64,000 nucleotides of DNA, from contig NZ_SMKA01000014.1 of assembly GCF_004348455.1 (NCBI RefSeq), positions 1-64,000 of the forward strand. Direction: 5' to 3'. Under the pieces are notes generated by a model, which saw nothing but the letters and a program-made list of their open reading frames with translations, did not search any database and was not told where the DNA came from. Shown one piece after another: positions 49,098 to 53,498 of this stretch. Each line of letters starts with the position of its first letter. The first letter of the stretch is position 1. The stretch comes from Kribbella albertanoniae (GTDB lineage Bacteria; Actinomycetota; Actinomycetes; Propionibacteriales; Kribbellaceae). The position numbers were made by a program, and so were the translations under genes.

Positions 49098-50102
49098 TCA
49101 AGCTGCTTGGAGTCGTTGGGTGGTTTTTGCTGGGTGGTTGGTTTGGGGGAGGTTGATGCCGACGGTCTGTGCGGGTGCTGGGGTGTGGGGCCGGTTCCGG
49201 AATCGTTCGGGGTGGGCGGTGTAGTAGGCCTGGTGGGTCTGGTCGCGTTGGTGCCACAGGTGGCGCCAGGTGCCGTTGTGGACCTGGTCGGGTGAGAACA
49301 GCGCGATCCCGGAGTGCTTGTGCTGGCTGTTGTACCAAGGCACGTAGGTCGCCAGGTGAGCACGAGCGTGCTCGAGGTCGGTGAAGGTGCCGGGGTAGTT
49401 CGGCCGGTATTTCATGGTGCGGAACTCTGATTCGGAGAACGGGTTGTCGTTGGACACCCGGGGCCGGTTGTGGGTCTGCGCGACGCCGGCCTCGGCGAGG
49501 AGCTCCTTGAGCACGTTGGAGCGCATCGAGGATCCGGAATCGGCGTGCACGGCCCGCGGTGTCCCGTGCATGGCGAACGCGTGCTGGAACATTTCCACGG
49601 CCAGGTCGTCGACCTCGCGTTCCTCGACTCTCCAGCCGACGATCTTGCGCGAATAGATGTCGATGATCGAGTAGCCCTTGAACGCTTTGCCGCGCCAGGG
49701 GGACCGCAGGTCGGTGATGTCCCAGGACCAGACCTGCCCGGGCCCGGTCGCTTCCAGTACCGGTGTTTCACGCGGTGTCTTGCTGCCCTTGCGGGTGGGC
49801 GCGACCGGCCGCTGGGACTGGTCAGGGATACCGGCTGCGATCCGCCACCACGACCGCCGCGACGCCAGCATCACACCGGCGTCCCACGCGGTCGCGAACG
49901 CGTGATCGACAGAGTTCCCACCCGCCCAGGCCAGCGTGATCTTGTCCGCGATCAGGCCACGATCAGCCGCCGAGATCCGCGACCGGTAAGCCCGGTCCTT
50001 ATGCAGCACAGGATCAGCCACCGGCTCCCGCGGGCAGGTCCGGTAATGCCACGTCGACCGCGACACCCCGGCCAGCTCCAACGCGCTGCGCTGAGACCCC
50101 AA
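49098..50102 (-). CDS. IS3-type transposase, orfB (DDE integrase domain)
   Basis: 334 aa counted from a TTG at 50102. The rve-type catalytic domain shows the DDE triad: D in WSWDITDL, D in HADSGSS, and E in FSESEFRTMKY, with the usual spacing to a final K/R helix. The N-terminal HTH_21-like region is RSALELAGVSRSTWHY. The frame is open upstream to a slippery site at 50219-50225 in orfA, so the active product is probably an OrfAB fusion of about 480 aa made by -1 frameshifting. No stop or frame damage is seen, so it may be active. Confidence 0.88.
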   Translation of the reverse strand: MGSQRSALELAGVSRSTWHYRTCPREPVADPVLHKDRAYRSRISAADRGLIADKITLAWAGGNSVDHAFATAWDAGVMLASRRSWWRIAAGIPDQSQRPVAPTRKGSKTPRETPVLEATGPGQVWSWDITDLRSPWRGKAFKGYSIIDIYSRKIVGWRVEEREVDDLAVEMFQHAFAMHGTPRAVHADSGSSMRSNVLKELLAEAGVAQTHNRPRVSNDNPFSESEFRTMKYRPNYPGTFTDLEHARAHLATYVPWYNSQHKHSGIALFSPDQVHNGTWRHLWHQRDQTHQAYYTAHPERFRNRPHTPAPAQTVGINLPQTNHPAKTTQRLQAA

Positions 50103-50140
50103 CTGGCCGGTCAGGTCGAGGATCAGCTCGTTCTCGGCGA

Positions 50141-50545
50141 TCAGGAAGTCGACGGATCGCTGCTCGCCGGGGCATCGCCGGGCTCTTGCTCGTTCATCGC
50201 ATGCAAGAGCCCGATAGCTTTTCCCAGCGTGTCGTTGGTGCCCTCCAGCTCACGGATCCGCTCGGTCAGTTTCGCGACCTCAGCCGCATGCGCCGCGGCC
50301 TCAGCCGCCCGCGCTTTCTCCAACGCGGTCCGTTTGGGCGATGGCACAGTCATAGGACTACCTTCTCGCGGGACCAGACGCCGGTCCAGATCACCCTCGA
50401 ACACCGTCGCCCGCCAATCCCGGAACCGCACATACGACACACCCTGCGCAGCCAGCCACGCCATCTTCTGCCCATGCGGCTGCACGTAATACCCATGCAC
50501 CAACTCCCGAATCTCCACCGCCGTAAACCCCACACTGACCGTCAT
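50141..50545 (-). CDS. IS3-type transposase, orfA
   Basis: 134 aa. An N-terminal DNA-binding-like region (about residues 5-60) is followed by an Ala-rich coiled coil (ALEKARAAEAAAHAAEVAKLTERIRELEGTND in two heptad blocks) typical of the OrfA leucine-zipper that mediates multimers. ATG 50545 has GGAG 7 nt upstream. The slippery heptamer GGGAAAA (50219-50225, minus strand) lies in frame as G-GGA-AAA near codon 108. Confidence 0.82.
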   Translation of the reverse strand: MTVSVGFTAVEIRELVHGYYVQPHGQKMAWLAAQGVSYVRFRDWRATVFEGDLDRRLVPREGSPMTVPSPKRTALEKARAAEAAAHAAEVAKLTERIRELEGTNDTLGKAIGLLHAMNEQEPGDAPASSDPSTS

Positions 50546-50658
50546 CACCCTGCTCCTTCGCCAATCGCCAACCGACTCACGACCAGCCTGGCGCAGAGGG
50601 GAAGGGGCAACACCAACGGATATCCGTCGAAATTGTGGGTGGCTGTGCGCAGCGCGAT

Positions 50659-52540: not shown

Positions 52541-53218
52541 TCAGGAACGTGACCGTGCCGCGTCCGCCGCGGCGAGCCCGGCCCGCAGCTTCTCCTGCGC
52601 TCCGGGTTCCCACGGCCCCGAAGACGTCAACGGAATCTCCACCATGAACCGTCGCTCCCACTCCGGGATCCGAGCTGCCACGAGCGCGGGATCGTCGGCG
52701 GCGGTCCGGTACAGCTCGGGTCCGGCCGCCGAGAACAGGTCTGCGATCACGAGCCGGCCGTCGGCAGCTCGCATCACGTTGTCCGGGTTCACGTCGATCG
52801 GTCCGCACCACGGCAACTCCACCTGCGCGCGCTCGTGGACTCGGCGGATCACGTCCGCGAGCTCGGCAACCTCGGGCGCGGCTTCGGCGATCGCCCGGTG
52901 GAACGCAACCGCCTCCACCTCCGGTACGGCGGCCAGCCACTCCATCACCGACAAATCCCCACCACCGGCCAACCGCCGATGGACGAACAACCGCGGCACC
53001 TGCCGAGTGTGCGCGGCCTCCCGATAGATCTCCGCCACATACGGCCCCGCCGGATCGAACGGACTGATCCGTACGGCGAGATCCCCGCCCGGCGACCGTA
53101 ACGCCGACGCCCAATCACCAGCCCCGCAGGGCGTCCACCCCTCGGCAAGGAACACCCGCTCAGCCACCCGATGATCCGCCTCAGGCCCCAGCAGCGCGTC
53201 GACCTCGTCCAGCGTCAT
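52541..53218 (-). CDS. Degenerate APH/protein-kinase-like protein
   Basis: 225 aa, no firm family. IDVNPDNVMRAADGRLVIADL resembles the kinase/APH catalytic loop (usually HxDxxxxN) and metal motif (DFG/DxD), but the first catalytic residue pair is replaced by Ile-Asp and the metal motif is ADLF. LAVRIS has Arg where APH kinases carry the ATP-anchoring lysine, and no Gly-rich loop is clear. It may bind ATP weakly or be a pseudo-kinase. ATG 53218 lies about 50 bp before the 62-bp hairpin array. Confidence 0.7.
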   Translation of the reverse strand: MTLDEVDALLGPEADHRVAERVFLAEGWTPCGAGDWASALRSPGGDLAVRISPFDPAGPYVAEIYREAAHTRQVPRLFVHRRLAGGGDLSVMEWLAAVPEVEAVAFHRAIAEAAPEVAELADVIRRVHERAQVELPWCGPIDVNPDNVMRAADGRLVIADLFSAAGPELYRTAADDPALVAARIPEWERRFMVEIPLTSSGPWEPGAQEKLRAGLAAADAARSRS

Positions 53219-53267: not shown

Positions 53268-53498
53268 AACGTCCGAAGAACCGGAGGGCCCGCCTCCGAT
53301 CGTTCGGACGTTAGCGGGGAGGCGGACGCAACGTCCGAAGAACCGGAGGCGGGCCCTCCGATCGTTCGGACGTTAGCGGGGAGGCGGACGCAACGTCCGA
53401 AGAACCGGAGGCGGGCCCTCCGATCGTTCGGACGTTAGCGGGGAGGCGGACGCAACGTCCGAAGAACCGGAGGCGGGCCCTCCGATCGTTCGGACGTT
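53268..53498. repeat. Four-copy array of 62-bp hairpin units
   Basis: Four 45-bp palindromes at 53268-53312, 53330-53374, 53392-53436 and 53454-53498 are separated by an identical 17-nt linker. Each has an outer stem AACGTCCGAA/TTCGGACGTT and an inner stem CGGAGG/CCTCCG. The loop is CGGGC in copies 2-4 but its reverse complement GCCCG in copy 1. The GDPD stop codon (TAA on the minus strand) is inside copy 4, so a transcript of GDPD runs straight into the array. Confidence 0.93.

Follow-up and report, generated by a model that had tools for sequence, protein, structure and literature searches.

How did four near-identical hairpins come to lie directly behind one gene of Kribbella albertanoniae, and why does one of them carry its loop in the opposite orientation? 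The window, that is, the whole 64,000-nucleotide stretch that we analysed, contains at 53268–53498 four 45-bp quasi-palindromes spaced by three identical 17-bp linkers, AGCGGGGAGGCGGACGC, with a period of 62 bp. Tandem Repeats Finder describes the array as period 62, 3.8 copies and 97% matches, and the arm pattern of the palindromes is found 4 times in the window against 0.03 expected from window shuffles. The locus comprises the following features (units and linkers are unstranded).

53268–53312: unit 1, 45-bp quasi-palindrome with loop GCCCG, the reverse complement of the other three loops
53313–53329: linker 1, 17 bp, AGCGGGGAGGCGGACGC
53330–53374: unit 2, 45-bp quasi-palindrome with loop CGGGC
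53375–53391: linker 2, same sequence as linker 1
53392–53436: unit 3, same sequence as unit 2
53437–53453: linker 3, same sequence as linker 1
53454–53498: unit 4, same sequence as unit 2, read first by the GDPD transcript; its first two minus-strand bases complete the GDPD stop codon TAA
53497–54249, minus strand: GDPD gene, glycerophosphodiester phosphodiesterase (PF03009, E 1.2e-38), its stop codon split by the array edge
52541–53218, minus strand: downstream 225-aa ORF, starting 49 bp past the array

Architecture of the GDPD array

An earlier note, made from the sequence of this stretch, had described four 62-bp units, almost identical including their linkers, that form double hairpins directly after the GDPD stop codon. 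The near-identity, the coordinates and the period are borne out. There are four palindromes but just three linkers, leaving the last 62-bp unit incomplete, and 'double hairpins' is a generous term: each palindrome folds strongly, whereas the linker alone gives a weak 3-bp stem. The stop codon, which had been placed inside the first transcribed unit, straddles the array edge, with two of its three bases inside unit 4. The 225-aa ORF beyond the array has no Pfam match at E 0.001; K. antibiotica has the same neighbour. Elsewhere in the window (49098–50548, minus strand), two adjacent ORFs encode 135 and 334 aa; the longer one contains an integrase core (rve) domain, and we take the pair to be an IS3-like element.

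A dispersed family of paired palindromes

The array had been read as a local event. Local amplification did occur, but the array belongs to a family spread over the whole genome. Exact matches to the arm pattern ACGTCCGA N20-40 TCGGACGT stand at 207 places in the 9.73-Mb genome (reversed control, 0), and the 45-bp subtype (up to 3 mismatches) has 164 copies; BLAST with the array against its own genome gives at least 86 matches (40 of 127 candidates scored). These roughly two hundred dispersed palindromes stand mostly in pairs or longer arrays in our sample, many of them against gene 3′ ends. The sample comprises 58 arrays, collected by BLAST with this array or by the arm pattern in contig order and forming part of the whole set; 136 units were counted in the fetched stretches at first, and 135 under a stricter length rule. 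The 58 groups divide into 10 singles, 33 pairs, 6 triples, 6 quadruples, 2 fives and 1 seven. With nine groups holding at least four units, the GDPD array ranks among the larger local amplifications of the family. When the sample is enlarged to 68 arrays, 40 are pairs, and singles and pairs together make up 52.

The geometry of these arrays is rigid. Units follow one another head-to-tail, and all 77 linkers in the 58 arrays are 16 or 17 bp long; between exact arms, 82 linkers of 8–38 bp were found, and among the 50 listed, 5 are of 16 bp and 45 of 17 bp. At L032:2543-2833 the linker lengths alternate (17/16/17/16 bp), which points to duplication of a 123-bp dimer. The outer arms (10 bp) and the inner stem CGGAG/CTCCG hardly vary among 93 distinct 45-mers and enclose a 5-nt apical loop. 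Positions 11–14 and 32–35 form an internal loop, mostly mismatched, in which pairs are rarer within units than between random units, as fits GATC on one side and not the other.

Conservation differs sharply between the parts of the repeat. Between arrays, the outer arms are 0.990 and the inner stems 1.000 identical, against 0.473 for oriented linkers (shuffled linkers, 0.299), as measured on 45-mers with one-sided GATC, one per array (39 units, 36 linkers); part of the apparent conservation reflects how the sample was drawn, with the arm pattern or with this array as BLAST query. The linker is therefore homologous and evolves fast at a near-fixed length, with the palindrome conserved. Within arrays, identity rises to 0.953 for units (0.883 between arrays) and 0.863 for linkers (0.513 between), and copies 2–4 at GDPD are identical, all of which supports the recent amplification that had been proposed. 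In 16 other genomes, inner-stem pairs are kept through changes in 446 of 583 cases, against 366 ± 9 when shuffled (0/5000); this set holds 53 units of 44 bases among the matches listed, chosen by their outer arms, with other lengths and a duplicate dropped, and such covariation can equally come from copying one arm onto the other.

The edges of the units follow a simple rule. The preceding base is a pyrimidine and the following base a purine in all 135 sampled units, and one of the exact-arm ends genome-wide breaks the rule; YR steps make up 26% of the window. At the drawn edge the rule is looser elsewhere, holding for 10 of 11 units in genome G001, 9 of 10 in genome G017 and 15 of 16 in K. 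antibiotica.

Placement at gene ends

Gene context was assigned with a codon-bias caller trained on 13 window ORFs and not from annotation. Of the 38 classifiable arrays, 23 have convergent neighbours, 13 co-directional and 2 divergent ones, against 28, 122 and 45 among 195 control gene pairs (Fisher p 1e-8 for the excess of convergent positions); the controls come from the fetched loci together with the window, and both of these sources include the stretch around the GDPD array. A further 19 of the 58 arrays were left unclassified, with a neighbour beyond the fetched stretch or the contig end, and L076, the one sampled array flagged inside a gene, was dropped. Contacts with genes are strongly one-sided: 35 of 70 stop-side contacts lie within 20 bp, as opposed to 1 of 26 start-side contacts, the other 35 stop-side distances being 28–954 bp, many of them in multi-repeat islands. 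Of the 70, 13 are at exactly −2, where the AA of the palindrome completes a TAA stop, as at GDPD.

Other repeats share some of these places. Next to the arrays at L024, L026, L028, L030, L043, L044 and L061, a second palindrome (CCCCGAACCGGTTCGGGG-like) is seen repeatedly, as is a stretch that ends like CGTTCGCTGCGGGTTCCCT; these neighbourhoods are composite repeat islands. A similar palindrome also lies at a gene end in genome G021 (L123). A flank starting like GCGGGTACGGCG recurs at L024, L040, L051, L055, L064, L066 and L070, beside 45-bp and longer members, as if these were set inside a larger repeated element.

In other genomes, singles lie between convergent genes in 8 of 11 cases in G001 and 4 of 10 in G017 (9 of 10 listed places fetched, 48 in total), and a stop codon lies at most 15 bp away for all 11 members found in G001. 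The K. antibiotica copies sampled, 14 groups on 13 fetched stretches, are less tied to stops than those here: 5 are convergent, 3 lie at contig edges and 1 is flagged inside a gene.

Recent expansion and empty sites

Judged by the GDPD protein, the nearest named relatives are K. antibiotica (G003, 88% aa) and K. sindirgiensis (86%). The 45-bp subtype numbers 164 copies here, 13 in K. antibiotica and 0 in 36 other congeners, and counts of the arm pattern across 38 Kribbella genomes, which exclude members with changed arms, range from 0 in 17 genomes through 48 in G017 to 207 here. These counts indicate that the family expanded recently in this genome, as a lineage burst. Across the order, the pattern is found in 35 of 391 genomes, 21 in Kribbella and 14 outside; a single match is present in 11 of the 14, while G089, G293 and G326 (from another taxonomic family of the order) have 15, 13 and 8, possibly from an unrelated palindrome family.

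We looked for empty sites at 21 loci and GDPD, of which 10 plus GDPD could be aligned on both flanks in K. antibiotica and 10 in G021. K. antibiotica, the nearest relative compared, is element-free between its flanks at every aligned locus, with no family member at 11 of 11. At GDPD the same two genes lie 45 bp apart there, against 280 bp here, without an array and with the stop codon at the same position (by eye); among the other ten loci, 7 have 0–27 bp between the aligned flanks and 3 have other sequence of 143–569 bp. At L053, L065 and L068, the point where the array splits in falls, in K. antibiotica, within a stop codon, T^AR (by eye). Flank identities of 82–91% in K. antibiotica blur the intergenic ends, and no clean target duplication is resolved. 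More widely, the family is absent from the GDPD locus in all 29 relatives fetched (37 matched). In G021, the family is represented at 1 of 10 loci (L068), by a member whose inner sequence differs; K. antibiotica has none there. Some G021 loci carry unrelated palindromes (by eye). Gene ends thus look like hot spots with turnover, and L068 shows that loss or reuse of hot spots occurs too.

The linker was considered as host DNA caught between two independent insertions, which is ruled out at L053, L058, L068 and L056, where the K. antibiotica flanks lie 0–7 bp apart; nor is it duplicated flanking DNA, since the flanks in the window do not repeat it (by eye).

Further palindromes occupy equivalent gene ends in relatives. 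The orthologues of L034 in K. antibiotica (L140) and G021 (L137) each have a different, larger palindrome at the same gene end (by eye). In K. sandramycini (G019) the 3′ end of GDPD is likewise followed by a tandem array, of 62 bp × 6.2, but an unrelated one (L090:2269-2651 and L195:1969-2351). This array belongs to its own dispersed family, with many periods besides 62, such as 83, 93 and 104, among the matches listed; given these varied periods, the 62 bp shared at GDPD is no evidence of a common rule, and we rejected a 62-bp rule common across species.

The inverted loop

Copy 1 carries GCCCG where copies 2–4 carry CGGGC, exact reverse complements within the 6-bp arms CGGAGG/CCTCCG. The earlier note had read this as a local inversion or template switch at a cruciform. 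As a relation between sequences the inversion is real; a fresh local event is not needed to explain it, both orientations being common in the family. Among 80 oriented, clearly asymmetric 45-mers, 28 have CGGGC and 7 have GCCCG between GGAGG/CCTCC arms. An exact flipped pair within one array is seen at GDPD and L041 only, among 58. The 45-mer of copy 1 is, moreover, identical to a unit on another contig (C144, locus L031), so that the flip may have come in with the inserted DNA. A fresh inversion at the GDPD array is thus possible but not needed; flipping is ordinary behaviour for hairpins of this kind, and this flip may be older than the array. The flip itself would have arisen by hairpin-mediated inversion or template switching, either here or at a donor locus.

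Folding and a possible role at RNA 3′ ends

Single units folded as minus-strand RNA reach −29.4 and −30.9 kcal/mol (z −4.4 and −6.5), the whole array reaches −161 kcal/mol (z −12.7), and neighbouring units are able to fold together as one long hairpin. Intrinsic (rho-independent) terminators consist of a strong hairpin just 3′ of the stop codon, followed by a T-tract. The array shares with them the strong hairpin directly past a stop codon, but differs in having no T-tract, a hairpin on both strands and tandem copies, and in being absent from the compared relative. A search for hairpins followed by T-tracts gave no site at the array on either strand and one chance-level site inside GDPD, and in Rfam all matches to the array fall far under the gathering scores, mostly chance miRNA-like ones on the hairpin.

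In 12 of 15 one-sided arrays (one adjacent stop) among the 68 sampled, the transcribed strand is the one that gives the stronger RNA hairpin, a bias noticed post hoc and with one tie excluded. At new loci, with 6 further arrays added to the sample, the same holds for 9 of 13 (1/1 here; 4/5, 2/4 and 2/3 in three other genomes), which alone is not significant, and we treat this strand bias as a lead and not as a result. A strong 3′ barrier, an RNA-stabilising tail and a protein-binding array had been put forward as roles; the location and the weak strand bias appear to favour a role at the RNA 3′ end.

Origin of the array and alternative explanations

Taken together, the data are best explained, with a probability that we put at about 0.7, if a REP/REPIN-like, non-autonomous hairpin element, perhaps with a role at RNA 3′ ends, was amplified locally to give the GDPD array. 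An enzyme would place the hairpin, single or as a pair, at a Y^R step. An element that starts with AA would be silent in a stop codon when inserted behind its T, and between convergent genes an insertion would be tolerated. Slippage or unequal exchange would then have duplicated the unit, 62 bp (or 123 bp) long, in tandem and so given the four copies seen here. In the step we hold weakest, hairpins of about −30 kcal/mol directly past the stop would form a two-way 3′ end in transcripts, which would slow or end transcription or block 3′ exonucleases. Counting against this reading are the missing RAYT, the lack of a clean target duplication, the G021 family member at L068, the looser tie to stops in K. 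antibiotica and the half of stop-side distances above 20 bp; for the RNA step, there is no T-tract, and K. antibiotica manages without the hairpins at the compared loci.

The known mobilisers of such elements do not account for this family. A RAYT-type Y1 transposase (PF01797, E 0.001) has no match in this genome and is found in 1 of 38 Kribbella genomes, with 5 of 14 control genomes positive; a RAYT association is therefore not supported here, and mobility is read only from copy number and empty sites. A 371-aa ORF between two arrays at L054 was considered as the mobiliser and set aside by eye alone. A more specific scheme, which we consider speculative and on balance improbable, has a RAYT-free mobilisation of hairpins in Actinobacteria, with a putative enzyme that would recognise AACGTCCGAA, insert a single unit or a 107-bp pair at Y^R steps without duplication, and set the 62-bp (six-turn) spacing; the AA start, silent in stop codons, would make gene ends safe harbours.

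Several other explanations deserve comparison with a mobile REP-like element. The most plausible, although we regard it only as a tentative possibility, is that the hairpins are immobile, functional bidirectional terminators or 3′-end protectors, maintained by selection and spread by gene conversion or duplication. Such a function would account for the convergent, stop-adjacent placement, for the uniformly close stops in G001, for hairpin pairing kept through two-sided changes in 16 genomes and for the lean of the stronger RNA strand towards the transcribed one (12/15, then 9/13). The gene ends of K. antibiotica tell against it: the family is missing at all 11 aligned loci, 7 of the ten besides GDPD having next to nothing between the flanks, so that these genes do not require it. 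Pattern counts that swing from 0 to 207 among congeners, and a near-invariant primary sequence that exceeds the needs of a hairpin alone, likewise count against it. A binding array for a nucleoid or supercoiling protein, in which 62 bp would amount to six helical turns and set the palindromes on one face, would fit the rigid 61–63-bp period and the near-invariant arms. We consider it quite doubtful, as singles and pairs dominate (52/68 arrays), the pattern is missing from 17 of 38 genomes and the period could descend from a single ancestral pair.

An unlikely alternative form of mobility is a classic MITE with terminal inverted repeats, a DDE transposase and TA duplication (TA-ACGTCC...GGACGT-TA). 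The empty site at L065 is consistent with TA duplication (by eye), 19 of 58 arrays have T before and A after, and if the unit is drawn one base longer, T/A flanks are present in 7 of 11 units in G001 and 7 of 10 in G017. Other Y/R flank pairs are nevertheless commoner in sum (39/58), and no full-length element with such ends was seen, without a dedicated search. As to target duplication itself, the empty sites come from a diverged species, the T^A junctions were read by eye and no repeated flank is resolved. Least probable is that tandem copies were collapsed or inflated in assembly. Family arrays do tend to break this 593-contig draft: 19 of 58 sampled arrays lie less than 300 bp from a contig end, against about 2 expected, and that the array exists is accordingly more certain than its copy number of four. 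Against an artefact, the array sits inside a 70-kb contig, dozens of loci show this same geometry, and another species too has pairs spaced at 62 bp.

Comparison with known systems

The nearest counterparts of this REP-like element are the short palindromic repeats of other bacteria. According to PMC3733652 (Di Nocera 2013), REPs lie near 3′ ends and between convergent ORFs and supply stop codons, and the CGTC REPs are left without a known transposase. The Kribbella family resembles these GTAG/CGTC REPs in consisting of short dispersed palindromes in tens to hundreds of copies at 3′ ends and in convergent gaps, often within 20 bp of stops, with termini that supply stops and with dimers; like the CGTC type, it has no obvious transposase. 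In its high copy number and its extragenic, mostly 3′ or convergent location it agrees with REPs in general. It differs from the tagged REPs described there, which are 20–40 bp long with an unpaired GTAG or CGTC tag and form mainly head-to-head dimers, whereas Kribbella units are 45 bp long, pair to the very end of their arms, with CGTC inside the paired arm, and stand head-to-tail with a 16–17-bp linker. The same text cites untagged REP-like families for M. tuberculosis, an actinobacterium, but does not contain the word Actinobacteria.

The REPIN/RAYT system combines palindrome pairs with a transposase, according to the accessible parts of PMC3116915 (Bertels and Rainey 2011) and PMC2817692. 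Two palindromes with a spacer are the commonest unit in both cases, and neighbours can form one long hairpin; the Kribbella pairs are head-to-tail instead of inverted doublets, though their units are near-symmetric. Unlike REPINs, which have a cognate RAYT (Y1 HUH) in the genome, the Kribbella family lives in a genome without a Y1_Tnp match. For the inverted loop, plastid genomes offer a parallel: PMC6342102 describes hairpin 'flip-flops' in which a 5-bp loop has been inverted between its long arms, recurrently and with homoplasy. There they sit at single intron sites, whereas here the flip affects one unit of a tandem array, in a family with both orientations.

Our literature search, which mostly covered papers outside subscription, found nothing relevant on such Kribbella repeats, and as far as it reaches the family is undescribed: of a known kind, but rigid in its tandem geometry and lacking both an unpaired tag and a RAYT. 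PMC3733652 leaves the CGTC REPs without a known transposase, and the REP-like Kribbella family is likewise without an obvious one. With its recent burst (164 against 13 against 0 copies among congeners), sites that stand empty in a sister species and an insertion rule that is simple (Y^R, stop kept), the family makes the question of the mobiliser testable in a cultivable soil genus.
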